NCBI GenBank assembly: GCA_029261855.1
Contig: JAJDAN010000060.1
Location: forward strand, 1 to 64,000
Direction: 5' to 3'
DNA: 64,000 bases
Source: Deltaproteobacteria bacterium
GTDB taxonomy: Bacteria > Myxococcota_A > UBA9160 > UBA4427
The position numbers were made by a program, and so were the translations under genes. Below the pieces are notes generated by a model. That model saw only the letters and a list, made by a program, of their open reading frames with translations, had not been told where the DNA came from and did no database searches. This document shows positions 26,779 through 51,480 of this stretch, piece after piece. How positions within the stretch are numbered: the stretch's first letter is position 1; every line of letters starts with the position of its first letter.

Positions 26779-27609
26779 CTAGCCGCGGCTCTTCGCGAGC
26801 GCGGCCTTCAGGTCGTCCCACACGTTGCGGCGGTTCTCGGCCGTGTACTGTCGCAGCACGTAGGCGGGGTGCAGGGTCGGCATCAGGGGAATGCCGCGGT
26901 ACTCGTGCCAGGTGCCGCGCACCCGCGTGATCGCCACGTCGCGGCCGAGCAGCAGGCTGGTCGCCGGCTTGCCGAGGGCGACGATCACCTTGGGTCGCAC
27001 CGCGGCGATCTGGCCGTCCAGGAAGGGACTGCAGGCCGACACCTCCGGCGGCAGCGGCGTGCGGTTCTTGGGTGGACGGCACTTGACGATGTTGCAGATG
27101 TAGACGGAGCTGCGGGGGATCTCGAGTCCCTTCTCGATCATCTGGGTGAGGAGTTCGCCTGCGCGCCCCACGAAGGGCAGCCCCTGCCGATCTTCCTGTT
27201 CGCCGGGCCCCTCTCCCACGAACATCAGGTCGGCCTCCGGGTTGCCGTCACCGAACACGATGGAGTTGCGCCCCTCGCAGAGACCACAGCGCCGACAGTC
27301 TCCGAGCTCGGCGCGCACCTCATCGAGGGTTGGGCGCTCTCCCCAGGTCGGCGCCTCGACGCCGGGCTCGGGCGAGGAGCCGGGCTGGGGCGAAGGGGTA
27401 GGCTGGAGCAAAGGGGCGGGCTGCGGCTCCGGGCGAGGCTTCGAGACGGGTTGCGCGAGAGCAGGGGCCGGGCCTTCCGGAAGCGCCAGGGGCTCAGCGG
27501 GCTCCCACTCGTCGACGCCCTCCTCGGCCAGCTCGGCGAGGGTCTCCCGGGCGTCGGCGAGAATCGACGCCGCTTCCGGTGCGATGTCCTCGCCTAGCGT
27601 CCGGACCAC
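26779..27609 (-). CDS. Uracil-DNA glycosylase, type 4-like (iron-sulfur)
   Basis: A 276-residue DNA repair enzyme. Residues ~1-40 are helical and acidic, ~45-90 a proline-rich linker (repeats of PQP, SPQPGSSPEPG), and ~95-270 the glycosylase. Seen: iron-sulfur cysteines in CRRCGLCEGRN and SACSPFL, motif A GEGPGEQEDRQGLPFVGRAGE, KCRPPKNRTP, VALGKPAT, and motif B PTLHPAYVLR. The Pro-rich N-terminal extension is longer than in typical type 4 enzymes. GTG start inside the 3' end of the upstream gene (16-base overlap), giving coupling with the enoyl-CoA hydratase. Confidence 0.9.
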   Translation of the reverse strand: MVRTLGEDIAPEAASILADARETLAELAEEGVDEWEPAEPLALPEGPAPALAQPVSKPRPEPQPAPLLQPTPSPQPGSSPEPGVEAPTWGERPTLDEVRAELGDCRRCGLCEGRNSIVFGDGNPEADLMFVGEGPGEQEDRQGLPFVGRAGELLTQMIEKGLEIPRSSVYICNIVKCRPPKNRTPLPPEVSACSPFLDGQIAAVRPKVIVALGKPATSLLLGRDVAITRVRGTWHEYRGIPLMPTLHPAYVLRQYTAENRRNVWDDLKAALAKSRG

Positions 27610-28397
27610 TTGGGATCTCGCTTCTCGAAGAAGGCGCGGATGCCCTCGGCGGCGTCTTCGGTGCGGGAGGTGAGCGTGATCATCTCACGCATGCTCTTCA
27701 TGGCGGCAGCGTAGTCCAGCTCGCACATCCCGTAGACCGCCTCCTTGCCCAAACGCAGCGCGGCGGGGGAGAGGGCTGCGAGGGTCGCACACAGGGCCTC
27801 GATCTCGGCGTCGAGCTGCGCGTCGGGGACCACCCGGGTGACCATGTCCAGGTCGCGCGCCTCACCGGCGGAGATGCGCCGGCCGGTGAGGACGAGATCG
27901 AGCAGCGCCTTGCGGCTGCCGATCGCCCGGTAGATCGGGACCGAGACGACCAGCGGGAGCAAGCCGAGGGCGATCTCGGGCAATCCGAAGACCGCGCTCT
28001 CGCTGGCGATCGTGAAGTCCGCCGCGACGGCAAGTCCGCAGCCGCCCGCCAGGGCGAAGCCCGACACGCGAGCGACCACCGGCTGGGGGGCGGCGTGCAT
28101 CGCTTCGATGACGAGGCGCACCCCGTCGAAGTGGGCGCGACTCTCGTCGATGGTCTCGTGTCCGAGCATTTCCTTCAGGTCGGCGCCGGCGCAGAACGCT
28201 CGGTCGCCGGCCCCACGCAGGACGATCACCCGCACGCCCGAGTCCGCAGCGGCGGCCTCGAAGGCTGCCTGAAGCTCGACGCAGGTCGCGCGGTCGAGGG
28301 CGTTCCGCTTGTCCTCGCGGTCGATCACGATCACCCGGGTGGGGCCGCGATCCTCGCTCGTGACGTTGCCGGTGCCCCGGGCAGCTGAGGCCGACAT
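27594..28397 (-). CDS. Enoyl-CoA hydratase/isomerase family protein
   Basis: A 267-residue crotonase-fold enzyme. The CoA/oxyanion-hole segments are RDKRNAL-type (REDKRNALDRAT near residue 30), AFCAGADLKEM near 70 and GFALAGGCGLAVAADFTIASESAVFGLPEIALGLLP near 115-150 (the crotonase signature, with Glu in the LPEIALG position). The ATG at 28397 lies 4 bases after the cytochrome gene stop. It acts on acyl-CoA substrates; hydratase, isomerase or other activity cannot be separated by motif alone. Confidence 0.88.
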   Translation of the reverse strand: MSASAARGTGNVTSEDRGPTRVIVIDREDKRNALDRATCVELQAAFEAAAADSGVRVIVLRGAGDRAFCAGADLKEMLGHETIDESRAHFDGVRLVIEAMHAAPQPVVARVSGFALAGGCGLAVAADFTIASESAVFGLPEIALGLLPLVVSVPIYRAIGSRKALLDLVLTGRRISAGEARDLDMVTRVVPDAQLDAEIEALCATLAALSPAALRLGKEAVYGMCELDYAAAMKSMREMITLTSRTEDAAEGIRAFFEKRDPKWSGR

Positions 28398-28401
28398 GGC
28401 G

Positions 28402-30339
28402 TCACTCTCCGGAGATCGGCTTGCCCGTTCCGGCTTCGATCGTGCCGTGGCGCTGCCGCTCGATCTTGTCCAGCACCTCGAAGGCGAAGCCGGGATCATT
28501 GTCGTCGTCGTGGCAGCCGCCACAGATCTGCAGGATCACGCACGAGTCGCACTTGTCGCCCAGGCTGATGATCGTGCCGATCCGCTTGGCGTCGGGTGCG
28601 ATGTGAGCTTCTCCCGGGCCGTGGCAGGATTCGCAGCCGACGCGGGCGAGGTCTGGATGGGCCTTTGCGTCGGATGCTGCGCTCTTGGGGAAGCCGCCGG
28701 GCAGGCCGAAGGCGGTCGTGTGGCACTGCAGGCAGCTCGCATCCCCGGCCTTGCTGCGGGTCTCGAGGGACTGCAGCGAGTGGGCGTGGGGACTCTTCTC
28801 GAAGGTGGCGAACTCCGCGGGGTGACAGCTCTTGCACGCGTCCGACCCGACGTAGGCGATGTCCGTGGGCAGCAGGTTCCCCGGGCGGCTGCCGCCGAGC
28901 GCCTCGCGCTGGGCCGGCGTCATGCCGGCGATCCCGATGTGCGAGACGTTCTTGCGGAAGCTGTCGTAGTCGAAGCCCAGCGAGTGCGTGGGATTGTGGC
29001 AGGTCTTGCAGACCGGCTCGTAGTCGCCGTTCTTTACGAAGCCCTTCGAGAGATGCGGGCCTCCGCGGCCGTGACAGCTTTCGCAACCGACGTTCTCGAG
29101 ATGGACCGGTGCTTCGTCCATCGTGTAGCCGCCTGGCTGGTCGAAGCCGACGACGTGACAGCTGACGCATTCGGGATTGCGTTCGGCGCCGTGGGTCACC
29201 AGCGTGTCGTAGGCCGTGGCGTGCTTCGTGTAGTGCCAGCTGTCGAGCTCGAGCTGGTGGCACACGCCGCAGACGTCGTTGCCCGTGTAGCCCTTCGGGT
29301 TGAGGAGGAAGGGAACCTTCGTGCCGGCGATCTTCGCGATCGTCATGCGGGCCAGGGCCGGGTCACGCTTCTCCCGCCAACCCTGGACCCGGTGCACGAT
29401 GTGCCGATCGCCGTCGAGGAACAGGATGTCCGGTACGCCGCCGCGCAGCTGGTAGAGGTTCTGGAGCTTCTGGCCGGGGTCGAGCAGGACCTCGGGAACT
29501 TCGAGGCCTCGCTCTTCGAGCATGGCCCGCACCTCGCGCGGACGGTCGAGGATCGACACTGCGACGAGCAGGGGACGCTGCGCTTCCGGGATCTTCGCGA
29601 GCTCGGGCACCAGGAACTCGAGCGCGGAATGGCAGTGCGGGCAGGTGTGCAAGAAGAAGATCAGCACCACGGGCCGGCCCGCGTAGTCTTCGAGAGCGAA
29701 GGGCTCACCGCCGTCGAGGCGGACCGTCTCGAAGAGCGGCGCCAGTGGTCGCTCGCCGAACGCCAGCGCTGCGTCCTTGCGTGCGGGCATCCGCAGGGCT
29801 TCGCGCAGGCTGTCCTCGATGCGTTCCGCCTCGTCGCTCCGCTTCGGGTCGAAGGCAGAGCTGCCGTAGATCATGAAGCCTTCGGCGTCGGCCGCGACGA
29901 TCGTCACCTGGCTCTGCAACCCCAGTCGCCGGGTGATGCGTCCACTGGAGTCGTCGATCACCGGAAAGCTGAGGTGCTGCTTCTGCGCGAACTCCCGGGC
30001 GGCGGCGCGGCTCGACCCCACCGCGACACCGAGCACCGCGAAATTCTGGCTCGCCTGCAGCGTGGACAGGCTCTGGACCGCGCCCACCGCCGGAATGGCT
30101 GCCGGACTGTCGGGATTGAAGAAGATCAGGACGAGACGTCGCCCGATGTAGTCCGAGATGGCGATCCGCTGGTTGTCGAGGGTGACCCCGTCGAAGGCCG
30201 GCATCGGGCGCTCGTGCGCGGCGCGCGCCGCGGCCGGCGCTGCCCCGAACTGCGCTGGCAACGACAGCAAGGTGACGGCCAGCAGCGCGCCGAGGGGAGA
30301 AGACAGGGTCAGGGAGCGGGCGAGCCGGGATCGTTGCAC
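28402..30339 (-). CDS. Multihaem cytochrome c with two N-terminal thioredoxin-like domains
   Basis: A 645-residue exported protein. A signal peptide (LGALLAVTLLSLPAQFGAAPAAARA) is followed by two thioredoxin/AhpC-like domains: residues ~45-180 without a CxxC (PDSPAA in its place), and ~195-340 with HTCPHCHSALEFL near 230. Residues ~350-630 carry eight CxxCH haem sites: CGVCH, CVSCH, CESCH, CKTCH, CKSCH, CLQCH, CESCH, CGGCH. Spacing and GPGEAH-type segments resemble cytochrome c554-like proteins. GTG start at 30339. Likely a periplasmic electron-transfer or redox protein; substrate unknown. Confidence 0.85.
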   Translation of the reverse strand: MQRSRLARSLTLSSPLGALLAVTLLSLPAQFGAAPAAARAAHERPMPAFDGVTLDNQRIAISDYIGRRLVLIFFNPDSPAAIPAVGAVQSLSTLQASQNFAVLGVAVGSSRAAAREFAQKQHLSFPVIDDSSGRITRRLGLQSQVTIVAADAEGFMIYGSSAFDPKRSDEAERIEDSLREALRMPARKDAALAFGERPLAPLFETVRLDGGEPFALEDYAGRPVVLIFFLHTCPHCHSALEFLVPELAKIPEAQRPLLVAVSILDRPREVRAMLEERGLEVPEVLLDPGQKLQNLYQLRGGVPDILFLDGDRHIVHRVQGWREKRDPALARMTIAKIAGTKVPFLLNPKGYTGNDVCGVCHQLELDSWHYTKHATAYDTLVTHGAERNPECVSCHVVGFDQPGGYTMDEAPVHLENVGCESCHGRGGPHLSKGFVKNGDYEPVCKTCHNPTHSLGFDYDSFRKNVSHIGIAGMTPAQREALGGSRPGNLLPTDIAYVGSDACKSCHPAEFATFEKSPHAHSLQSLETRSKAGDASCLQCHTTAFGLPGGFPKSAASDAKAHPDLARVGCESCHGPGEAHIAPDAKRIGTIISLGDKCDSCVILQICGGCHDDDNDPGFAFEVLDKIERQRHGTIEAGTGKPISGE

Positions 30340-30461: not shown

Positions 30462-31601
30462 TCAGACCTTCTCGAGAATGTGGATCCCGCAGGCGCTGCC
30501 CAGGCCGATGACATGGGTGAGACCGAACGTCGCGCCCTCCACCTGCCGCTTTCCGGCTTCTCCGCGCAGGTGTGTGGACACCTCGTAGATGTTGGCGATG
30601 CCCGTCGCGCCCAGGGGGTGGCCCTTCGACAGCAGGCCTCCGGACACATTCACCGGAATGCGACCGCCGTGGGCCGTCTCGCCTTCGTCGATCATGCGGC
30701 CCGCGTCCTCGGGTTTTCCCAGACCGAGGTTGCCGTAGTGGAGGATCTCGGCCGTCGCGAAGCAGTCGTGCAGCTCGACGAGATCGATGTCCTCGGGTCC
30801 GACACCGGCCATCTCGTAGGCCTTGGCCGCCGCCTGCTGGGTGCAGGTGTTGACGTCGGGCATCGTGAGATTGCGCTCCTGGTAGGGATCGCTGGTCAGG
30901 ATCGACGCGCGAACCTTCACCGCCCGCTTGCTGCCGATCTCCTTGAGCTTGCGCTCGCTGATCAGCACGGCCGCCGCCGAGCCGTCCACGTTCACCGAGC
31001 ACATCAGCTTGGTGTTCGGGTACGAGATCATCTCGGCGTTCATGACCGTGTCGAGGGGAGTCTCGATCTGGTACATGGCCTTCGGGTTCAGGGTCGAGTG
31101 GTGGTGGTTCTTCACGGACACCTTGGCGAACTGCTCGAAGCTGGTGCCGTACTTGCGGCTGTGCTCCATGCCGGCCTCGGCGAACACGCAGGGCATGGTG
31201 CCGGATCCGAGCAGTCCCTCGGTGGGGATGCCCTTCTTGGGGCCGCCGCCGCCCAACAGGCCCTTGCCCATCTGCTCGACACCCACGGCGAGCACGACGT
31301 CGTAGACGCCGGCCTTGATCGCCATCCAACCTTCACGGAATGCCGTGGCGCCCGTCGCGCACGCGTTCGCGCAGTTGACCACCGGGATCCCCGTCTGGCC
31401 GATCTCCGCGAGCACGCGCTGGCCGACCATCGCGCCGGCCTGCCCGAGGTTCCCGCAGTACAGGGCCTCCATGTCCTTGATGTTCAGGCCCGCGTCGTCG
31501 AGGGCCATCAGGGCCGCGGTTGCGCCCAGCTTCGGGACCGAGGTCTCCGGGAAGCGGCCGAACTTGATCATGTCCACGCCGAGGATATAGACGTCACTCA
31601 T
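30462..31601 (-). CDS. Thiolase-family protein (SCP2-type)
   Basis: A 379-residue non-decarboxylating thiolase homologue of the SCP2/lipid-transfer type. Seen: the catalytic-region NCANACATGATAFREGW near residue 75, NVDGSAAAVLISERKL near 205, HDCFATAEILHYGNLGL near 265, GGLLSKGHPLGATGIANIYE near 315 (catalytic His) and GLGSACGIHILE near the end (second Cys region). It lies 25 bases after the DUF35 gene; such thiolase-DUF35 pairs form a complex in acyl-CoA or steroid side-chain metabolism. Direction (condensing or cleaving) is undecided. Confidence 0.9.
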   Translation of the reverse strand: MSDVYILGVDMIKFGRFPETSVPKLGATAALMALDDAGLNIKDMEALYCGNLGQAGAMVGQRVLAEIGQTGIPVVNCANACATGATAFREGWMAIKAGVYDVVLAVGVEQMGKGLLGGGGPKKGIPTEGLLGSGTMPCVFAEAGMEHSRKYGTSFEQFAKVSVKNHHHSTLNPKAMYQIETPLDTVMNAEMISYPNTKLMCSVNVDGSAAAVLISERKLKEIGSKRAVKVRASILTSDPYQERNLTMPDVNTCTQQAAAKAYEMAGVGPEDIDLVELHDCFATAEILHYGNLGLGKPEDAGRMIDEGETAHGGRIPVNVSGGLLSKGHPLGATGIANIYEVSTHLRGEAGKRQVEGATFGLTHVIGLGSACGIHILEKV

Positions 31602-38367: not shown

Positions 38368-38530
38368 CCCTCGGTCTCGAGCCCCCTGCCTTTTCGAGTC
38401 GCCGGACGCCGGCGCGTGACGTGTCCAGTCTCATGGCAGCGTTCGCGCGTGGTTGTGGCGTGTCTTTCCCAGGCGACACCTATCAACGCGGGGGGTGGGG
38501 CGGCCGATAGGTAGGGCGCGGAGGTGCGCT
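38368..38530. other. Upstream region of the TPR-kinase gene
   Basis: With the element this gives over 300 bases between ruvB and the kinase gene. The remaining ~160 bases carry no recognisable gene. GGAGG at 38520-38524 is a strong ribosome-binding site six bases before the kinase TTG. No clear promoter by eye. Confidence 0.5.
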
Positions 38531-41173
38531 TTGGCCGTTGTCGGTCGGATCTTGATGGTGCTCGTGTCCCTTCCCCTGCTGTTGGCGGGGAGCTTCGGGC
38601 TGCTCGCGACCTATCTGCCCGACGCGGGCGCGACCGAGGCCTTGCATGGTGTCCTCAAGGGCATCACGCGTGCGGCGAGCTCGGACAGGGGCCTGATCGC
38701 GAGTCTCGAGGACTGGCTCGTCTGGCCGGCGCTGCGTTTCTCCCTGGCACCCGCTGGCTTCGTCCTGTTGTTGTCGGGGCTCCTCCCGCGCGGCGGTGGC
38801 GATGTCGGAAGCAAGGCCGACGAGAAGCGCAGGGGCGAAGGGAAGTCGAAGAAGCGCGGCAAGAAGGGCAGCGAGGACGACGAGCTTGCCGTCTTCGCCG
38901 GAGCGGGCGAGCCACGCAAGCCCGCCGGCATCGAGAAGCGCTTCCTCAAGAAGATCGAGAAACAGGCGCAGATGGTGGCCAAGAAGGGCGATGTGCTCGA
39001 GGCCGCCGAGCTGCTGTTCGAGGCCGAGCACTACGAGAAGGCTGCCGACTACTTCATCCAGGCCGAGCAGTTCGTGCGGGCGGCCGAGATCCGCCACGAC
39101 CAGAATCGCTTCGTGGAGGCCGCGGAGCTGTACCTGCAGGCGGGTCGTCACGAGTCCGCTGGTGCCATCTTCGCCCAGCAGGACGAGTTCGAGCGAGCCG
39201 CCGAGTGCTACGAGGCCATCAACAGCATGAGCGTTGCGGCCGAGATGTACGAGAAGAGCGGCAACATGCGCCGGGCCGCGAACTGCTACAAGTCCGCCGA
39301 CTTCCTGCGACACGCCGCCTCGTCCTTCGTGAAGTGCAAGGACTGGCTCGCGGCAGCCGAATGTCTCGACCAGGTGTATCGCGAAGAGAGTCTGCGCAAC
39401 AAGGGCGACGCGAAGTTCCAGCAGGACCTGAACAAGCTGGTATTGCAGGCGGGCAAGCTGTATCGCCGGGCCGAACAGCCCGAGAAGGCGCTCGAGATCC
39501 TCCAGCGAGGCGAGTGCTCCGCGGAGGCCGCCGAGCTGGCCCTCGATCTGCAGCAGTACGCCCGCGCCGCCGAGCTGTTCCAGGACGCGAGCCTGCCGGA
39601 ACGCGCGGCGGAGGCGCTCGAGAGCATGGGTGAGACCGAGGGGGCCGCGCGCATCCTCGGCAATCTCCACCGGGACCGGGGCGACGCCAAGGAGGCCGCC
39701 GAGTGCTTCGAGCGGGCCGGCGACTTCCTGGCGGCGGGAGACCTGTACCGCTCGCTCGAGAGCTATGGCAAGGCCGGCGACTGCTTCATGCGCCAGCGCG
39801 ACTTCCTGGCCGCCGCCGAGATGTACACCCTGTCCGAGGATCGTGCGAACGCAGCGACCTGCTACGAGAAGGCCGAGTGCTTCAAGGAGGCGGCCGAATG
39901 TCGTGCGCTGCTGGGTCAGCACGACAAGGAAGCCGAGCTGCTCGATCTCGCCGGCGAGCATCTGTCCTCCGGCCAGACCTTCCACCGCGAGGGCATGGAC
40001 GACGAGGCCATCACGGTGCTCCAGAAGGTGGAGCCCGGGCAGGAAGGGTTCTCGGAGGCGTCGGCCCTGCTCGGAGACATCTTCCAGGCGCGCGGCCAGC
40101 TGTCTCTTGCGATCAAGAAGGTCAAGCAGGCCATTGGTGACCGCGAGCTCGACCGCGAGAGCATGCCGATCTACTACTCGCTGGCGACGATCTGCAACGC
40201 CAACGACGAGGTCGCAGAAGCGGTCGAGATCTTCGAGAAGATCCTCGCCTTCGACTACCACTACAAGGACGTGGAACAGCGTCTGGTCGAGTCGCGCGAG
40301 CGCCTCAAGACGACGACCCCTACCGAGGCCGCGTTGCCCGAGAACAGCGGCAGCGGCGCGGCGGACCAGCCCGGTCGCTACCAGATTACGGGTGAGCTCG
40401 GCCGCGGTGGCATGGGCATCGTCTACAAGGCCAAGGACACCGCGCTCGATCGTCTCGTCGCCTACAAGGTCCTGCCCGACTCGCTGCAGGAGAACACCCA
40501 GGCGCTGAAGAACTTCCTGCGCGAGGCGAAGGCGGCCGCCAAGCTCAATCATCCGGGCATCGTCACCGTCTACGACACCGGCGCGCAGGACGGCCGCTAC
40601 TACATCGCGATGGAGTACGTCGACGGCACGACCCTCAAGGAGATCCTGCGCCGTCGAGGTGCCATCGCGCCGGCCGGGATCCTGCACGTACTGGTGCAGA
40701 TGTGCGAGGCACTGGCCTACGCCCACGACAAGAAGGTCGTGCACCGCGACATCAAGACCGCGAACGTGATGTGGACCCGGGACAAGAAGGCGAAGCTCAT
40801 GGACTTCGGCCTCGCGAAGGTGATCGAGGAGGTCCGCAATCACACGACCGTGGTCTCGGGGACGCCGTACTACATGAGCCCCGAGCAGACGCTCGGGAAG
40901 AACATCGATCACCGGACGGACATCTATTCCCTGGGTGTCACGCTCTTCGAACTGGCGGCGGGGACGGTGCCCTTCAAGGAGGGCAACATCCCCTATCACC
41001 ACGTGCACACGCCGCCGCCGGACATCCGCGAGATGCAGCCGGAGCTGCCCCAGTCCCTGGCGACGGTGATCAATCGCTGCCTGCTCAAGGACCCGGGCGA
41101 GCGCTATCAGTCGGCGCGCGAGATCCTCGATCTCGTTCGCAACTCGCTGAGCCAGACCCAGCAGAGCAGCTGA
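38531..41173 (+). CDS. Membrane-anchored TPR protein with C-terminal Ser/Thr protein kinase
   Basis: An 880-residue protein. Two hydrophobic segments near residues 10-30 (MVLVSLPLLLAGSFGLLATYL) and 75-90 anchor it in the inner membrane. A Lys/Arg-rich stretch follows, then ~450 residues of short helical repeats (AAECYEAINSMSVAAEMYEKSGNMRRAANCYKSA type). Residues ~615-870 are a eukaryotic-like kinase: GELGRGGMGIVYKAKD, VAYKVLP (ATP Lys), VVHRDIKTANVM (catalytic Asp), MDFGLAKV, GTPYYMSPEQ. Start TTG 38531 is set by GGAGG six bases upstream. The kinase usually comes first in such proteins; here the repeats do. Confidence 0.88.
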   Translation: MAVVGRILMVLVSLPLLLAGSFGLLATYLPDAGATEALHGVLKGITRAASSDRGLIASLEDWLVWPALRFSLAPAGFVLLLSGLLPRGGGDVGSKADEKRRGEGKSKKRGKKGSEDDELAVFAGAGEPRKPAGIEKRFLKKIEKQAQMVAKKGDVLEAAELLFEAEHYEKAADYFIQAEQFVRAAEIRHDQNRFVEAAELYLQAGRHESAGAIFAQQDEFERAAECYEAINSMSVAAEMYEKSGNMRRAANCYKSADFLRHAASSFVKCKDWLAAAECLDQVYREESLRNKGDAKFQQDLNKLVLQAGKLYRRAEQPEKALEILQRGECSAEAAELALDLQQYARAAELFQDASLPERAAEALESMGETEGAARILGNLHRDRGDAKEAAECFERAGDFLAAGDLYRSLESYGKAGDCFMRQRDFLAAAEMYTLSEDRANAATCYEKAECFKEAAECRALLGQHDKEAELLDLAGEHLSSGQTFHREGMDDEAITVLQKVEPGQEGFSEASALLGDIFQARGQLSLAIKKVKQAIGDRELDRESMPIYYSLATICNANDEVAEAVEIFEKILAFDYHYKDVEQRLVESRERLKTTTPTEAALPENSGSGAADQPGRYQITGELGRGGMGIVYKAKDTALDRLVAYKVLPDSLQENTQALKNFLREAKAAAKLNHPGIVTVYDTGAQDGRYYIAMEYVDGTTLKEILRRRGAIAPAGILHVLVQMCEALAYAHDKKVVHRDIKTANVMWTRDKKAKLMDFGLAKVIEEVRNHTTVVSGTPYYMSPEQTLGKNIDHRTDIYSLGVTLFELAAGTVPFKEGNIPYHHVHTPPPDIREMQPELPQSLATVINRCLLKDPGERYQSAREILDLVRNSLSQTQQSS

Positions 41174-42475: not shown

Positions 42476-45400
42476 TCAGCTCCGGCTCATGCGTGCGCAC
42501 CAGACCGACGACACACAGCGCAGCAGCTCCTGGGCGTCCGCCGATGCGCTGATACGCTGGGTGAGATCGTCGCCTTCCGACAACGTGGCTGCGTCGTCCG
42601 ACGCGCACAGCGTCGTGAGGGCCGACCGCAGATCCCCGTGGCGGATGTCGAGGGCGACGCCCGCCGCCAGGCCTCGCAACGCGCGGCGGAAGCTGCCCGG
42701 GTCGATGCCGCGGATCTGGTTGAGTGAAGTTCCGTCGAGCACCCGGCGCATCTTGCGTCGCGTCCAGCGACCCAGAGAACCCTCGATCCCGCTCGCGATC
42801 GTCGCATCGAGTCGACTGTCGATCGGCTCCTGGTCGGCTTCGTCGCCCAGGGCGAGGCCGGCGAGCGTGATCAGCAGATCTCCGAGTTCGTCGTCCGAGA
42901 AGCGCTCGAGACCGGAGCAGGCGAGGTCGCGCAAGGCGTCATCCCGTAGCGTGACGAAGTCGGCATCCTGGCGCTCGCCTTCTGCGGCAGCCGCCGGCGT
43001 GTGGAGGACCTGGTCGAGGGCCTCCGCGGCGTGCTGGAGCAGGCGCCGCGCGACCTCGTAGCTTGGATCCGCGAGGGTGGGCTGGGAGAGGACGGGCGTC
43101 GGAATGCAGTCCGGCGCCAGGTCTCTCTCGTCCGGCGACGCCGCGCCGATGGCGCGGAGCAGCGCCAGGCCGAAGCGGGATGCGTCTTCGTCGCCCCGTC
43201 CCCTTGCGATCTGGATCAGACCGCGAATGGACTGGGCGCGCGCCGGATCCCCTTCGAGCAGGGTGGCGTGCTGCGCGGCGGCCTGGTCCCAGCGGTCGGG
43301 CATGACGGCGAGCAGGCTGGCGAGCGGTGCCCGCGTCTTGGGATGGTCGGGCGCGATCTGGAGCGCGCGCTCGAAACACAGGATCGCACCGCTCATGTCC
43401 TCGAGCGGGCCGGACAGGAGTCGCGCGAGCTTGTACTGCACCTCGGCGAGATCCCGGTGGTCGGGTTCCGGGTGATCGATGCAGAAGTCGCGCAGACCGT
43501 CCGCGGCCTCCTGCCAGTCGCCCGCCAGCCGCAGCAGCTTCGCGCGAGAGAGGGCGGCTTCGGCGCAGCGCGGGTCGTGGCGGACGGCTTCGGCGTAGGC
43601 CTCGCATGCGGTCGCCATGTCGCCGGTGCGCTCGAGTGCGCGTGCGTAGAGGAGCGAGAGACGAGCGACGGCGTCGGGCAGGGCGTTCACGGCGTCGACG
43701 ACCAGTGCTTCGGGCACCAGACGCATCAACTCGTCGAGGTCTTCTGTTTCGGCGTGGATCTCTGCGAGCAGCACCCAGGCGCGCGCGTTGTCCAGGCTGG
43801 CGTCGAGGGACTTCTGGAGCTGGCTGCGTGCGGACTCAGCGTGCTCGCGTGCGATTTCGAGCTCGGCAGCGCGCAGGTGACGCGCCGCGCAGGCGTGCAG
43901 GTCGCCGGCGCTGCGACAGGCGTCGGCCCAGCTCGCGAGGGCCGTCACGGCGTCATCGATGTCCCCGGCCTTCTCGCAGAGCCGGGCGATACCGGCGTGT
44001 GCCGTGCCGCAGCTTTCGTCACTGGCGACCGCCTGGCGGAACGAGGCGAGGGCTTCGTCGGGTTGTCCGGCCAGCTCGAGCACGTTGCCGAGCATCGCTC
44101 GGCGCTCGGCTTCCCGGTCGTCCGGGCCCATCTCGAGTCGTGCCTCGAGGGCGCCGCGCGCGGCGGCGAGGTCCCCCCGCTCGAACAACAGTTCGCCGTA
44201 CGCCTCGAGGGCCTCCCGGTTGGACGGGTCGAGATCCAGCGCGACGCCATAGAAGAGCACCGCGGACTCGAGTCGGTCCAGCGCGCGGGCGGCAGCGCCG
44301 CCGGCCATCGCCGTCGCGAGCTGGGCGTCCGCGTCGAGTCCGGATTCGGTCACTGCAGCGGAGAGGTCGAGCGCGCGAATCGCCGCGGACTCGGCCTCCT
44401 CGAAGCTCTCCTGGTTGCAGGCGACACGCGCGAGGTCCGCGTTCGCCGCGGCGGACGCGGGGTCGCATTCCAATGCGCGTCGCAAGCGGTCCGCGCAGCG
44501 ACCCGGCTCGTGCGTCTCGACGAGCAGCGCGGCGCGGCGCAGGTGGGCTGCGGCGTCTCCTCCCTGCCGTCGTTCCCCGGCCTGCTCCCAGGCGTCGGCG
44601 GCGGCTTCGGCCTGGTCGTCTTCTTCCAGGAGTGCCGCCAGGGTCGCCCAGGCGTCGGCGCTGTCCTCGTCGACGTCGAGTGCACGGCGGCAGCGCTCGA
44701 TGGCTTCGTCCGGTCGCGACAGCTCGATCAGGGTCTCGACGAGCAGAAGGTGGTCGCTGCAGCTCGCGTCGGAATCAGGGTCGTCGCACCAGCTCGCATA
44801 GCTGGCTGCGAAGTTCTCGCGATCGCCGACCTCGGCGTAGAGATCGGCCTGGCGGCGGCGCGCTTCCGGGGAAAGGGGCGAGAGTGCGTCAGCGTGATCG
44901 TAGGCATCGAGAGCGCGGGCTGCTGCGTTCCCATCGCGCCGGTGCAGCTCCGCGGCCGCCAGCCAGACTTCGATCCGACGCGCGGTGTCGTCGTCGCCCA
45001 GGATGCCGGCCTCGCGCTCGTACAGCTCGGCGGCCGTGCCGAGGGCGTCGTGCATCTCGTGCAGCTGCTGCAGGGCGCGCAGCGACTCGAGGTCGCGGGG
45101 CTCGGACGCGAGAGCGTCCGCGTAGGCGGCGATAGCCCGGTCCTCGTCGTGGATGCGTCGCCAGTAGACGTCGCCCAGTCGTCGCGCCAGCAGCGCCTGC
45201 TGTCGGGTACTGCACTGTTCCTCGAGGCTGTGCTCGAGGTCGAGAGCGCGTGCGACCTCCCGCCAGTCGCCGAGTCGCTCGGACAGGTCGCGCAGGCCTC
45301 GAATGGCGTGCACGCAGGTCGGCCGCAGAGCGAGGCTCTCCGCGTACGCGTCGCGCGCGGCGGCCGGTGCGTGCAGGCGTTCGTCTCGCAGGCGAGCGAG

Positions 45401-48400
45401 CTCGAGCCAGTCATCGGCGTCTCCCTTGCCCCTGGCAACGCGGGTCGTGAGTCGCTCTTCCAGCTCGACGTGGTTCGCCTCCCGGCGCAGCAGGTCGATG
45501 AGACGAAGCTCGGCGTCGTCGAGGTCCTGGGCGCTGAGTCCGGCGGCCGCGTCTTCGTCCACGTTTGCCTGGATGCTGCGCAGGTGCCTGAGGGCGGCGT
45601 TCGGGTCCGCCAGGCGGTCGGCGTAGGTCCACGCGAGCTCGCGCTGAAGCACGTTCCGGCGCACGATCCGCGGGTCGTCTTCGTCGGCAGGTCGTTGCTC
45701 GAGGTCGGTCGTCTGCAGCGCCAGCTCGGCCTCCGAGGCGCGTGTCCACGCCTCGTCCCAACCCGCAGCCCGCAGGGTCGTCGCCAGATCGGACAACAGG
45801 GCGATGCGCGCCTCCGGGGTCGAGGGATTCCCCGAAGCCGCGCTACCCGAGGCGGCACCTGTCAGGTGCACGGCGCGCAACAGGTGCGGCACCCCGAGAT
45901 CCGGGCTCGTCAGACGGTTGGCGTACAGGTCCGCCACCGACAGATGCAGTCGCAGCCGGTCCTCGTCACTGCAGTGCTCCAGTCTCTGCTCGATGACCTC
46001 TGCCCGCTCGCGCGCCCGCCCCGTTTGCGCGTACAGGTCGTCGAGCTTTGCGAGGACCTCCGGGTCACGCGGGAACAGCTTGCGCGCGCACTCGAGCGAC
46101 GTGATCGCGCGCCCGGGTGCGTTCATGTCCCGCTCGAGGATGCGCGCGCCCCCGACGTGGAGATCCCGGGCGTGAGAGGGGTCGGTGGTGAGGTCGAGCT
46201 CGTCCTCCAGGGCGCGCAGGACCGACTCGAAGCGGCCCGCCATCCTGTGCACGTCTGCGATTCGCGCGACGATGAGCGCGTCCTTCGGACGCACGGCTCG
46301 CAGTCGCTCGAGCCAGGGCAGGGCGGCGTCCTGTCCGACGTTCGCCGTGGCGATCTCGGCCGCTCGCTCGTAGATGCGGGCCTGCTCGCTCGGGTCGGCG
46401 CTCTGGGCGTCCACGTAGAGGCAGTCGAGGACGGAGGTCCAGCGGCCGAGTGCTTCAAGGACTTCGCGCATGGATCGCCGGGCGGATCGACGCTCCGGCG
46501 CCAGGGCGATGACTTCGCGATAGGCGGCGACGGCGGCTTCCGGCGCCGCGAGCTCGTTCGCCAGGAGACCGGCTCGGCGCTCGAGCAGATCGACGCGTTC
46601 CTCCGTCGAAGTCGTTCGCGCCAGGCGCGTGTCGATCAGCTCGACTTCGGTGTCGTAGCTCTCCATGCGATGCGCGAGGTCGATCGCGTGCTGGAACGCG
46701 GCATCGTGATCGCCTTCGAGCGCGATGACGTCATGAAGCTGCGCCAGTGCATCGACCGGTCGCGCCAGTTGGCTCTCGAGGAGCTGCGCCAGCTCCATGC
46801 GGATGGGGATCTGCTCGCTCGGCGTGGCCCCGGCGAGCGACGCCTCGAGCAGCACGACCAGGGGAGCGGCGTGTTCGCCGCGACGGTAGAGGTCGCGCAG
46901 GGCGGCCTGGGCGTCGACGTCGTCGGGCCGGACGGAAAGGACCTCCTGGTAGGCTTCGATGGCGCCGTCGTCGTCGCGGGCCTCGCGCAGGCAGTGCGCC
47001 AACCGGTGCAGCCACAGCGCGCGCTCCCCGGGATCGCTGCACGCCTGGGAGACACTCCGGCACAGCCCAGCCCTCTCGGCGCTTCGGCCCGTGGCTTCGT
47101 ACAGCTCGACCAGCGGCTCGACCGCGGGGCCGGTCGGACCGTCGGTCTCGAGGGCCGCCTCGAGCAGGCGAATTGCGCCCTCCGCGTCGTCGAGCTCTTC
47201 CGACCGCAGGGTGGCGATCCGAAGGCGCAGGGATGTCTGGAGTCCGCGGCTCGGGTCGTCGCCGGCGACGTCAGCGGTTGCCTCGCAAATCGCCGCCAGG
47301 CGGCCTTCCAACAGGCGGACTACGTCCGCGAAGCGATCGCTGGCTTCGTACTGGTCCACCAGGAACTCGCTGGCGTCGGCACGTCCGGGGTCCAGCTCGA
47401 GCAGGCGTTCGAAGTGTTCGCAGGCCCGCGCTTCTTCTCCGGGACGCGCGGCCCAGAGCTCGGCGGCGCGCGCGCGGAGCACGCGCTCCCGTTCGGGGTC
47501 CGGCCCGGTCTCGAGCTCGGCGAGGATCACGCGGAGCAGGTCCTCGGGACGCGACAGTTGCTGATAGAGGGCCGCGAGAGTGCGCCACGGATGGGCGCGA
47601 CTGGCATCCAGACGGCCGGATTCTTCGAGGTGGAGCACCGCGCCCGACGGATCCTTCATCCGCTCGGTGCAGAGCTGGGCGATGCGATCGTGCAGCGCGA
47701 TGCGCGCGGGGCCCTCGGCTCGCTCGGCGTTGGCGGCGAGTCGGTCGCGCAGCGCCGTCCAATCGCCGCAGCGCTCGAGCAGGCTCTCGAGCCGCGCGCC
47801 GGCTTCGGCGGCGATGACTGCGCTGGTGTCGGGGGTGCAGAGCCGGGCGTACGCCTGGCGTGCCTGCTCGAGCTCTTCGAGGGATTCCTCGAGCAAGACG
47901 GCCCGTTCGAACAGCAGTGCCTCGCGGCCGTCCGCGTCGGGGGCGTCGTCGGCAATCTCTTCGAGCAGACGCGCCAACCCGCCGTAGTCGTTCGCGGCGC
48001 GAAGCGCACGCTCGAGGCCGCGCGTCGCTTCTTCGCGTTCGGGGGCGCGCAGCCTGACCGCACGGAAGGTCAGAACCGCGTCCTCGAACTGGGCGAGTGG
48101 GTCGAGCATCAGGGTGGCGCGACGCAGGTCGACCTCGAGGGCCTCTTCGCTGTCGTCGGGCAGGGAGCGTCTTCGTTCGAGAAGCTGCTGCGCGAGCTCT
48201 TCGAAGCGACCGGCGCGTTCGAGCAGGTGCTCGAGACGATTGCCGACATCGTCGGGCCGGCCCGGGAGCCCGCTGAGGCGCCACAGAACGACGATGGCGC
48301 CGTCGACGTCGCAGAGTCGCTCGTCGAGCAGCTGGGCCAGCTCGTCCAGGTAGCCTACCTGCGCTTCGCCGGGAGATCCGTCCGCCAGGCGCCGCAGTAC

Positions 48401-50449
48401 CGGAACCACGTCCTCGAAACGATTCTCCGCCAGGTAGTGCCGGCGCAGGGCCGTCAGGGCGGCGAGGTCGTCGGGTCGGGACTCGAGGGTCGATTGCCAC
48501 CAACCGATGGCAGCGTCGTCGTCTCCCTGCATCTCGTGCAGGGTCGCGATGCGAGCTCGCGTCGCGGCCTGCTCCGCCCCGCTCTGCAGCTCGTCGAGGT
48601 CGCTGAGCGTGCGCGTCAGATCGTCGTGACGACCGAGCTTTTCCTGAATTCGCGCCGTCGTTTCGAGTCCTTCTCGCGAGCCGGGCGCCGCGCCGAGCAT
48701 GCGCTCGGCCCAGCTCAGTGCGGCTTCGAGATCGCCGGACTGCTCGCGTCGCTCGCACAGATCCAGGCAGATCGTGGCGAGGCGTTCGGGGTCCGTGACC
48801 GCGGCTGCCTCGCGTTCGAGCGCTCGCAGCATCGCGTCCGGGTCGCCGGACCGGGTCGCAAGTCGGGACAAGGCCTGGAGTGCGCGCGGGCTCGGCGCCA
48901 GGTCGAGCGACGCCTCGAAGCAGAGCGCACTGGCCTCGAGGTCGTCGAAATGTTCTTCGAGCAGCTCGCCCAACGAGCAGTAGAAGCCGGGGCGATCTGC
49001 TTCGGGGCCGCCGTCCGCGGCGCGCTCGAGCAATCCGCGCAGGGACTGCCAGCTCTCGGTCTTGCGGTAGAGGGATTCGAGGGTCGCCGCCAGCCCCGGT
49101 CGCGACGGGCTCACCGCGAAGGCTCGCTCGTAGGCGTCGATCGCCGCGTCCAGGTCGGCGAGCTGGGCCGCCTGAACGTACCCGAGTTCGATCAGCAGGG
49201 TCGTGTGTTCGTGTGGATCGGCCTCGCAGCCGGCCGCCCGTCGCTCGAGCACCGCGGCGACATCGTCGTGTCGCTGCAATGCCTGGTAGGTGGCGCACAG
49301 GGATTCGAGGACGAGCCCATCGTCGGGCGCCTGGCGCTCCGCGTACTCGAGGCAGGCGAGGGCGCGTTCGTCGTTCGCGCGTTCCGTATGGAGTCCGGCG
49401 GCTTCGAGGAGGTAGCGCAGGGGTGTCGACGCGCCGAGGGAAGCGATCAGACGATCGAGAGCGCTCGCCAGCTTGTCGTCGTCACCGGCCTCTCGCTCGA
49501 GGTCGACGAATGCGGCGATCACCGTGGTGTCGTCGCTCGACATTTCACCGGCACGCTCGAACCAGACGCGCGCGGTGGAGACGTTGTGGAGCTGCTCGAG
49601 CTGCGTGTAGCCGGCTTCGAGCGCGATCGCGGTGCGTCGTCGCGCGCCCGCCGCCAGGCTGAAGCGACGCTCGAAGAGATCCGTCAGCAGATCCCACTGA
49701 CCGCGTGCCGCTGCGGATACCGACAGCGCTTCGACGGCAGCTTCGTTGCGCGGGTCGTCGCCGAGTGCGCGGCGGTAGAGCTCGACCGCGCGCTCACCCT
49801 GGCGGAGCGGCCCGGAAAGAAGGCCGGCGAGTGCGACGAGGGGCGTCGCACGGTCGGGGCCACGGACGTTCCCGATCAGTCGCTCCCAGATCGCGGCGGC
49901 GCCCTCGGGATTGCCTTGGGTCTCGAGGGTCCGGGCGAGGCCAGCGAGCGCCTCCTTCTGATTGGCATCGATGGAGAGTGCCTGCTCGAAGCAGGTCATG
50001 GCCTCGCTCGCGTCGCCCACATGGCGCAGCCAGACGTCGCCCATCTCTGCGAAGAAGACGGCGCGTTCGTAGGGCTCGGTCAGGGTCTCGATCTCGAGCT
50101 CTGCGATCTGCAGCACCATGTCCCAGGCCTCGCGGCGCGCGTGGACCTGTCGCAGCTGGCGCAGGGCCGGGCCGTAGCTCGAGTCGATCTGGACGGCCTG
50201 GGTGTACTGCTCGATGGCCAGGTCGATGTCGAGACAGCGCTCCTCGAGGATCTGGCCGAGGCGATAGTGGATGGGGGCGCGTTCGGCGGGGGCTTCGAGA
50301 TTCGGATCCGACAGACGCTGGCGATAGAGCGCCACCAGCTTGTCCCAGTCGCCTGCGAGGAAGTAGGCTTCCTCGAGTGTCGCGAAGGCGGTGGGGTCGC
50401 CGGGGTCGGCGGCCATCGCAGCGACGTGGCGGTCCAGATTCGCAGTCAC
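42476..50449 (-). CDS. Giant TPR-repeat protein
   Basis: A 2,657-residue protein made almost entirely of tetratricopeptide-type helical repeats (e.g. AIEQYTQAVQIDSSYGPALRQL, AMTCFEQALSIDANQKEALAGLA, AILCFERALQIAPDHPKTRAPLA), over its whole length, rich in Ala, Arg, Glu, Asp and Leu. No signal peptide, membrane segment or enzymatic domain was recognised. The last ~200 residues (from about LARRLLQHAAEALDQVL) look less repetitive. GTG at 50449 with GAGGGGGGA upstream; the frame is open further upstream but without TPR character. It is followed by the PilZ gene after 47 bases. Scaffold role inferred. Confidence 0.85.
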   Translation of the reverse strand: MTANLDRHVAAMAADPGDPTAFATLEEAYFLAGDWDKLVALYRQRLSDPNLEAPAERAPIHYRLGQILEERCLDIDLAIEQYTQAVQIDSSYGPALRQLRQVHARREAWDMVLQIAELEIETLTEPYERAVFFAEMGDVWLRHVGDASEAMTCFEQALSIDANQKEALAGLARTLETQGNPEGAAAIWERLIGNVRGPDRATPLVALAGLLSGPLRQGERAVELYRRALGDDPRNEAAVEALSVSAAARGQWDLLTDLFERRFSLAAGARRRTAIALEAGYTQLEQLHNVSTARVWFERAGEMSSDDTTVIAAFVDLEREAGDDDKLASALDRLIASLGASTPLRYLLEAAGLHTERANDERALACLEYAERQAPDDGLVLESLCATYQALQRHDDVAAVLERRAAGCEADPHEHTTLLIELGYVQAAQLADLDAAIDAYERAFAVSPSRPGLAATLESLYRKTESWQSLRGLLERAADGGPEADRPGFYCSLGELLEEHFDDLEASALCFEASLDLAPSPRALQALSRLATRSGDPDAMLRALEREAAAVTDPERLATICLDLCERREQSGDLEAALSWAERMLGAAPGSREGLETTARIQEKLGRHDDLTRTLSDLDELQSGAEQAATRARIATLHEMQGDDDAAIGWWQSTLESRPDDLAALTALRRHYLAENRFEDVVPVLRRLADGSPGEAQVGYLDELAQLLDERLCDVDGAIVVLWRLSGLPGRPDDVGNRLEHLLERAGRFEELAQQLLERRRSLPDDSEEALEVDLRRATLMLDPLAQFEDAVLTFRAVRLRAPEREEATRGLERALRAANDYGGLARLLEEIADDAPDADGREALLFERAVLLEESLEELEQARQAYARLCTPDTSAVIAAEAGARLESLLERCGDWTALRDRLAANAERAEGPARIALHDRIAQLCTERMKDPSGAVLHLEESGRLDASRAHPWRTLAALYQQLSRPEDLLRVILAELETGPDPERERVLRARAAELWAARPGEEARACEHFERLLELDPGRADASEFLVDQYEASDRFADVVRLLEGRLAAICEATADVAGDDPSRGLQTSLRLRIATLRSEELDDAEGAIRLLEAALETDGPTGPAVEPLVELYEATGRSAERAGLCRSVSQACSDPGERALWLHRLAHCLREARDDDGAIEAYQEVLSVRPDDVDAQAALRDLYRRGEHAAPLVVLLEASLAGATPSEQIPIRMELAQLLESQLARPVDALAQLHDVIALEGDHDAAFQHAIDLAHRMESYDTEVELIDTRLARTTSTEERVDLLERRAGLLANELAAPEAAVAAYREVIALAPERRSARRSMREVLEALGRWTSVLDCLYVDAQSADPSEQARIYERAAEIATANVGQDAALPWLERLRAVRPKDALIVARIADVHRMAGRFESVLRALEDELDLTTDPSHARDLHVGGARILERDMNAPGRAITSLECARKLFPRDPEVLAKLDDLYAQTGRARERAEVIEQRLEHCSDEDRLRLHLSVADLYANRLTSPDLGVPHLLRAVHLTGAASGSAASGNPSTPEARIALLSDLATTLRAAGWDEAWTRASEAELALQTTDLEQRPADEDDPRIVRRNVLQRELAWTYADRLADPNAALRHLRSIQANVDEDAAAGLSAQDLDDAELRLIDLLRREANHVELEERLTTRVARGKGDADDWLELARLRDERLHAPAAARDAYAESLALRPTCVHAIRGLRDLSERLGDWREVARALDLEHSLEEQCSTRQQALLARRLGDVYWRRIHDEDRAIAAYADALASEPRDLESLRALQQLHEMHDALGTAAELYEREAGILGDDDTARRIEVWLAAAELHRRDGNAAARALDAYDHADALSPLSPEARRRQADLYAEVGDRENFAASYASWCDDPDSDASCSDHLLLVETLIELSRPDEAIERCRRALDVDEDSADAWATLAALLEEDDQAEAAADAWEQAGERRQGGDAAAHLRRAALLVETHEPGRCADRLRRALECDPASAAANADLARVACNQESFEEAESAAIRALDLSAAVTESGLDADAQLATAMAGGAAARALDRLESAVLFYGVALDLDPSNREALEAYGELLFERGDLAAARGALEARLEMGPDDREAERRAMLGNVLELAGQPDEALASFRQAVASDESCGTAHAGIARLCEKAGDIDDAVTALASWADACRSAGDLHACAARHLRAAELEIAREHAESARSQLQKSLDASLDNARAWVLLAEIHAETEDLDELMRLVPEALVVDAVNALPDAVARLSLLYARALERTGDMATACEAYAEAVRHDPRCAEAALSRAKLLRLAGDWQEAADGLRDFCIDHPEPDHRDLAEVQYKLARLLSGPLEDMSGAILCFERALQIAPDHPKTRAPLASLLAVMPDRWDQAAAQHATLLEGDPARAQSIRGLIQIARGRGDEDASRFGLALLRAIGAASPDERDLAPDCIPTPVLSQPTLADPSYEVARRLLQHAAEALDQVLHTPAAAAEGERQDADFVTLRDDALRDLACSGLERFSDDELGDLLITLAGLALGDEADQEPIDSRLDATIASGIEGSLGRWTRRKMRRVLDGTSLNQIRGIDPGSFRRALRGLAAGVALDIRHGDLRSALTTLCASDDAATLSEGDDLTQRISASADAQELLRCVSSVWCARMSRS

Positions 50450-50643
50450 GGATCCCCCCTCGGGCCGCACGCAACTTCGCCCGTGGCTCCTACATCGACT
50501 TCGCAGGCCGACTTCTTGATGAATCTCTGTTGCGCAAGGCATTCTGTTTGAATAGGTTTTTCGCGCATTTGGGGTCCGACCGGGCCCCTCTCCCGCCATC
50601 GGGGTGAACCAGCCTTCATGAGTCCGGCCGTGTGTCCAGCGGG

Positions 50644-51480
50644 ATGAGTTCCATTCCGCCCACATCAGCACCGATCCGCGCAGAAGCCACCGTCGTGGGG
50701 AACGCCTCCGAGGGCGGGTCCAACCACCGCGTGACCCTACGGGTTCCGCGCTGGCCGGGGGCCCGACCGGGACAGTTCGCGATGCTGTCTCCCGGTGAGG
50801 TCACGAACGTCCGGCGCGACGACCCGCTCCTGCCCCGTCCGATGGCGGTCTTCCGTCAGCGGCCCGCGAGCGGGCCGGAGAGCCCTTCCGACGTCGAGGT
50901 GCTCTACAAGGTGGAGGGCCGCGGAACGGCGCTCCTCGCCGAGGCGCGCGAAGGCGCCCGAATTCGCCTCGTCGGACCCCTGGGACGCCCCTTCCCGACA
51001 CCCCGACCGGGTGCTCGCGTGGTGGTCGTCGGCGGCGGGACGGGCATCGCCTCGGTCTACGGTCTCGCCGCAGAGGCGCCCTCCGGGTCCCGGAGTACGC
51101 TGATCCTCGGGGCTCGCAGCGCCACGGACCTGATGGCTCGCGCCGACTTCGAGGCCCTCCCGGCGATACTCCAGTTCACGACCGAGGACGGGAGCCTCGG
51201 TGAGAAGGGCCTGGTGACCGCTCCCCTCGAGCGGGCCCTCGCCGAAGGCGACGTCGACACCGTCTACTGTTGTGGTCCCACCCCGATGATGCGCGCGTGC
51301 GCGGAACGGGCGGCGGCGGCCGGCGTCACCTGCGTCGTGTCCCTCGAGAACAACATGGCCTGCGGATTTGGGGTGTGCCTGGGCTGCGCGGCTCCCCGCC
51401 CGGCGGGCGACTATGCCCTGGTGTGTCGAGATGGCCCCGTATTCGACGCAAGCGAGATTCAGTGGGACGGGCTGCCGTGA
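50644..51480 (+). CDS. pyrK: Dihydroorotate dehydrogenase electron transfer subunit
   Basis: FAD and [2Fe-2S] subunit that links the class 1B dihydroorotate dehydrogenase to NAD+. The 278-residue protein has a FAD-binding region (PGQFAMLS near residue 42, VLYKVEGRGTALLAE near 88), the NAD region VVVVGGGTGIASVYGLA near 130 and YCCGPTPMMRACAER near 210, and the iron-sulfur cysteines in NMACGFGVCLGCAAP and LVCRDGPVF. The ATG at 50644 is used; GTG 50632 is possible. Its TGA overlaps the pyrD GTG. Confidence 0.93.
   Translation: MSSIPPTSAPIRAEATVVGNASEGGSNHRVTLRVPRWPGARPGQFAMLSPGEVTNVRRDDPLLPRPMAVFRQRPASGPESPSDVEVLYKVEGRGTALLAEAREGARIRLVGPLGRPFPTPRPGARVVVVGGGTGIASVYGLAAEAPSGSRSTLILGARSATDLMARADFEALPAILQFTTEDGSLGEKGLVTAPLERALAEGDVDTVYCCGPTPMMRACAERAAAAGVTCVVSLENNMACGFGVCLGCAAPRPAGDYALVCRDGPVFDASEIQWDGLP

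Follow-up and report, generated by a model that had tools for sequence, protein, structure and literature searches.

In the known bacterial systems that form or reduce disulfide bonds, electrons are exchanged with quinones, with NADPH-linked thioredoxin or with cofactors carried by separate proteins. Domains of the ResA/TlpA type usually act as reductants; ResA itself keeps the cysteines of CxxCH motifs reduced for haem attachment, working in trans. E. coli DsbC is an isomerase without a cytochrome. CcmG, too, keeps CxxCH cysteines reduced for haem attachment in trans (PMC3420020), and a CPHC site with a valine before the cis-proline is the pairing usual for the oxidising DsbA (PMC4460558). 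A UshA-like protein, NF041198, is listed with a CxU redox motif (PMC13188914). The gene described here encodes parts that resemble several of these proteins, arranged in a single chain.

Structure of the gene and of its product

The window, i.e. the whole stretch of 64,000 nucleotides that was analyzed, contains at 28402-30339, on the minus strand, a single gene for a protein of 645 aa. We infer the GTG at 30339 to be the start codon; the stop codon ends at 28402. The open frame extends upstream to 31329, where the extension overlaps the thiolase gene at 30462-31601. GC content is 68% at the first, 48% at the second and 88% at the third codon position, in line with a coding frame in a window of 68% GC. 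The first-pass annotation had named a split into two genes as fatal to its reading: two separate genes are ruled out, since 38 homologues read in the class keep the identical domain order in one frame. The features of the locus are listed below.

28402..30339, minus strand: double-thioredoxin octahaem cytochrome gene, 645 aa, putative GTG start; class genes are homologous over the whole length
30220..30339, minus strand: probable Sec signal peptide, about residues 1-40, with an Arg-rich start, a hydrophobic core and AxA; low model confidence at 1-32, homologue N-termini unaligned
29755..30219, minus strand: D1, cysteine-free domain of thioredoxin/redoxin fold, about residues 41-195; Pfam AhpC-TSA/Redoxin at 45-143, no Cys in 38/38 class members
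29314..29754, minus strand: D2, thioredoxin domain of ResA/TlpA type, about residues 196-342, with cis-Pro303; Foldseek match to ResA, AlphaFold2 pLDDT mostly above 90
29629..29643, minus strand: CPHCH, residues 233-237, thioredoxin active site also reading as CxxCH; C233 and C236 in 35/35, H237 in 22/35
28870..29304, minus strand: first c554-type tetrahaem repeat, residues 346-490, CxxCH at 357, 391, 419 and 444; PF13435, 1bvb, homologous to the second repeat
28405..28869, minus strand: second c554-type tetrahaem repeat, residues 491-645, CxxCH at 502, 536, 569 and 606; second stretch of PF13435, repeat similarity
28540..28551, minus strand: C597xxC600, non-haem Cys pair, with haem motif 8 six residues further on; C597 in 34/35, C600 in 35/35
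27594..28388, minus strand: enoyl-CoA hydratase/isomerase, downstream neighbour; PF00378
30462..31601, minus strand: thiolase-like gene, upstream neighbour; PF22691, PF00108

Pfam recognizes in the protein two AhpC-TSA/Redoxin and two Cytochrome_C554 domains. Nine CxxCH strings are present, where 0.026 are expected on average in a shuffled protein of equal composition: one is the CPHCH of D2, at 233, and eight lie in the C-terminal half. On first reading, eight CxxCH sites had been placed after two AhpC/thioredoxin-like domains, the second with a CPHCH at once thioredoxin CxxC and CxxCH, the first devoid of cysteines; domain matches, motif positions and the class homologues agree with all of this. 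PF00578 (AhpC/TSA) reaches a score of 78.9, against a cut-off of 26. A peroxiredoxin of this type is nonetheless ruled out by the lack of a peroxidatic cysteine, as D1 has no cysteine at all and those of D2 form a thioredoxin-type CxxC.

Both halves of the protein contain repeats: D1 and D2 are homologous (26% identity, E 4e-9), and so are the two tetrahaem modules (30% identity, E 3e-18). The AlphaFold2 model, which does not include haem, has a mean pLDDT of 84, with values above 90 over most of D2 and low confidence at residues 1-32. When compared by Foldseek, the thioredoxin part is closest to ResA chains (TM-score by target about 0.8), and the second match of D2 is 3c71, an engineered ResA carrying CPHC. 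For the cytochrome half, PF13435 scores 90.3 bits in two stretches (cut-off 20.8). In Foldseek this half alone matches, modestly, only cytochrome c554 (1bvb; E 1.1e-3, TM 0.29 by query and 0.41 by target, with a haem-free model). Profile searches also retrieve cytochrome c554, plus weaker multihaem relatives; the PDB entry "multiheme cytochrome c selenoprotein MccSep" is a weak match, and the MccA profile matches partially, in a single stretch around haem 5. As judged from sequence, the protein is best taken to be exported, with a thioredoxin-type disulfide-exchange site joined to eight predicted haems.

Haem motif 8 (C606xxC609H) closely follows the pair C597/C600, which may serve as a relay disulfide or bind a metal. 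Outside the motifs, histidines 373, 429, 452, 467, 518, 579 and 631 are each kept in all, or all but one, of the 35 aligned proteins, and H383 mainly in the class. Seven such histidines for eight haems leave at least one haem without a universal distal ligand; one haem might then be open, like that of c554, a reading drawn from the count and not from a structure.

Distribution and conservation

Of the 91 class genomes, 82 contain a family-level match to the octahaem protein, among them all 43 of high quality. The automatic tally for the class gives 88, of which six, being short thioredoxin matches only, were left out. The nine genomes with no family-level match are incomplete or contaminated assemblies. 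Among the nearest genomes, 40 out of 41 encode the protein (E <=1e-20), mostly at 44-74% identity, nearly always in single copy and at full length. A scan of the contigs of the genome itself with the single protein returned only an unrelated redoxin, and a plasmid search only TlpA and redoxin stretches.

The 30 aligned members from the main order do not vary at H235, H237, P303 or any cysteine of D2 and of the haem motifs. In an alignment of 35 proteins, from the class and from other classes, C233, C236, P303 and all eight CxxCH motifs are found in every one. This invariance of cysteines, cis-proline and haem motifs is, with the domain order and the distribution, the established part of the analysis. 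It also bears on the idea that the thioredoxin domains are merely structural and the protein a plain octahaem electron carrier: the loss of the redox site of D1 in all class members is in its favour, but the CxxC and cis-proline of D2, unlike the adjacent D1, are kept without exception across classes, which makes it quite improbable.

In the sister order of the class (L074-L080) the double-thioredoxin form is present and CPHCH is kept. One genome, G042, has two double-thioredoxin octahaem proteins, L073 and L074, and L073, the deeper copy, reads CSYCR in place of CPHCH. Outside the class, a strong match (E <1e-50) is found in 24 of the 224 sampled genomes; the 12 of these 24 homologues that were read, from other classes of the phylum, have eight CxxCH and a single thioredoxin domain, in which the site reads CPHCR, CPHCQ or CGHCQ. 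The residue before the cis-proline varies: V302-P303 here, FP or IP in some relatives, TP in other classes.

The single-thioredoxin form is the older-looking one. In a tree of the cytochrome half, class members stand apart from the single-thioredoxin homologues; the root was placed between the two groups by choice, so that polarity is an assumption. The simplest history starts from one thioredoxin domain and a duplicated c554 module; within the class, the thioredoxin domain would then have been duplicated, and its first copy would have lost its cysteines.

The CPHCH motif of D2

CPHCH could in principle carry a ninth c-type haem, set within the thioredoxin fold, and the conservation of His237 in all 30 main-order members, and in 37 of the 38 class members read, speaks for it. 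Yet the histidine is absent from all 12 homologues read in other classes (R or Q) and from L073 (R), both cysteines staying in place. Moreover, E. coli DsbC, which is not a cytochrome, features CGYCH at its thioredoxin-fold site (PDB 1eej), as D2 has CPHCH. A haem motif inserted in a thioredoxin-like fold attached haem poorly, according to the citing account of that work (Mavridou 2008, as cited in PMC3420020). A ninth haem is accordingly very improbable, and was set aside because the outgroups lose the histidine while retaining the cysteines.

The conserved unit is, on the alignment, CxxC plus cis-proline, a thioredoxin active site, to which His237 is a lineage feature; CPHCH is best read as a thiol/disulfide centre, a ninth haem there being unlikely. 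The earlier proposal is thus split: the link between thiol/disulfide chemistry and multihaem electron transfer stands as the best reading, as CxxC, cis-proline and eight haem sites are invariant together, while CPHCH as a haem site does not. The case advises against scoring each CxxCH as a haem, the ninth motif here being, by its evolution, a thiol site.

Genomic context

The neighbours conserved across the order are DnaK, DnaJ, RuvABC, an OB-fold protein and thiolase on one side, uracil-DNA glycosylase and ferredoxin on the other; thiolase recurs in many of the 28 loci compared. Since they are housekeeping or unrelated genes, the locus is taken to be inherited vertically and its surroundings give no functional hint: an operon-based function was dropped for this reason. 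Of the 12 single-thioredoxin octahaem loci from other classes, 5 adjoin large membrane proteins, with no functional clue. These loci (L081, L083, L084, L085, L087), all from another family, have the octahaem gene directly downstream of one or two such proteins.

Other genes of the window and of the genome may be mentioned. At 42476-50671 (minus strand) lies an open frame of 2731 aa, rich in tetratricopeptide repeats; on the opposite strand, a frame of 2516 aa (43001-50551), with no family match, is probably a mirror frame due to high GC. At 38453-41173 (plus strand) a protein of 906 aa combines TPR-type repeats with a C-terminal Ser/Thr protein kinase domain. Elsewhere in the same genome, a paired-CXXCH protein is found near a c554-type protein of 451 aa (L132:3481-4398, plus strand, and L132:6634-7989, minus strand), and in a protein of 581 aa (L133:2280-4025, minus strand) a c554 module is combined with an SH3-like domain and with a class III cytochrome.

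Possible function

As a disulfide-exchange site is joined to a string of eight haems, the protein is likely to transfer electrons between haem and protein thiols in an extracytoplasmic location. The most likely reading, held with moderate confidence, is a haem-coupled thiol oxidase, made of an exported ResA-fold D2 with its CPHC and of an eight-haem wire; the loading of the haems, the coupling, the direction and the partners are what we infer. D2 would exchange dithiol and disulfide with partner proteins, and would pass two electrons to or from the wire formed by the two c554-type tetrahaem modules. Thiols of substrates, or of DsbA-like proteins, would reduce the CPHC disulfide, and electrons would move to the haems, perhaps via C597/C600, and on to the respiratory chain. 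D1, the cysteine-free copy of D2, may be a binding or spacing domain.

The thiol oxidase, acting in place of DsbB, is preferred because of the repertoire of the class, as searched by Pfam profiles, from which a divergent DsbB may escape: a DsbA-like protein (Thioredoxin_4) is present in 90 of the 91 genomes, DsbB in 25 and VKOR in 10, either of the two in 33. Neither is found in 25 of the 43 high-quality genomes. The CPHC of D2 with its Val-cisPro, the DsbA pairing, also speaks for the oxidase. The genome of the window itself has a VKOR match, which counts against the oxidase, as do the FP or IP of some relatives and the TP of other classes in the place of VP. A broader proposal is unlikely: in most of the class, the electrons of periplasmic disulfide formation would leave through the thioredoxin-octahaem protein, as a substitute for DsbB/VKOR, with CPHC and C597/C600 feeding the cytochrome wire and not quinone.

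Electrons might also run in the opposite direction: quinol or other cytochromes would feed the haems, and these in turn D2, whose targets in the periplasm would be disulfides or some other oxidised thiol. The fold of D2 is best matched by ResA, domains of the ResA/TlpA type are usually reductants, and the ResA-like NCBIfam model matches 25 of the 35 members, below its cut-off. DsbD-type transporters, found in 84 of the 91 genomes, this one included, make a reductive role possible as well; the same systems, on the other hand, already give reductant, and the dipeptide of D2 is PH, as in DsbA, not the reducing PP or EP type. This direction is possible but doubtful.

D2, with D1, could instead be a built-in maturation tool, keeping the CxxCH cysteines of its own chain reduced for haem attachment in the manner of CcmG or ResA. 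The ResA fold of D2 agrees with such a role, which those two proteins perform in trans. However, CcmC, CcmB, a CcmA-like ATPase, CcmF and CcmE (Ccm system I) are encoded on contig C78 of the genome, so that haem supply is available; together with the DsbD-type transporters and separate TlpA/redoxin-like proteins, they make self-maturation unnecessary. On C11 and C69 the genome encodes its other multihaem cytochromes, which showed no thioredoxin domain. Self-maturation is therefore improbable, and the haem-coupled thiol oxidase remains the preferred reading.

Comparison with known systems

Pfam, NCBIfam and the PDB recognize the parts of the protein but not its whole architecture, and a literature search, which covered few subscription journals, returned no paper on a thioredoxin-multihaem fusion. 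A previously described common family, the other finding that would have undone the first-pass reading, was thus not encountered among curated families or papers, yet the architecture is common within the class. The fold of octahaem enzymes is not shared, according to Foldseek (HAO E 0.5, MccA E 9.9).

The best whole-protein family is NF041198; the score of 188.4 bits, against a cut-off of 275, comes from its c554 end alone (model positions about 400 to 519). The c554-type module is common to both, and NF041198 is also a case of a chalcogen redox motif paired with c554-type haems; the 645-aa protein, in contrast, has neither the UshA-like domain nor Sec. Each half of the cytochrome part is similar to the tetrahaem family of Nitrosomonas cytochrome c554 (1bvb; PF13435) in its sequence and order of motifs; here the modules are in tandem, accompanied by the extra C597xxC600 and fused to thioredoxin domains.

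DsbA shares with D2 the CPHC (233-236) and the Val-cisPro pair (V302-P303). Yet no DSBA Pfam domain is found in the protein up to E 1, the long helical insertion of the DsbA type is absent from the predicted secondary structure of D2, and D2 has a ResA-type fold, fused to a cytochrome. ResA/TlpA-like proteins (PDB 1su9, 3c71; NF002854) have in common with D2, and with D1 as to fold, the position of the CxxC, the cis-proline and the extracytoplasmic location; the curated ResA model, NF002854, gives 44.6 bits and does not reach its cut-off of 170. The known ones are stand-alone or membrane-anchored, while here an eight-haem fusion, CPHC and a cysteine-free partner domain are found. If the preferred reading is true, the protein would directly link the redox state of protein thiols to multihaem electron transfer, in a class mostly lacking a detected DsbB or VKOR.
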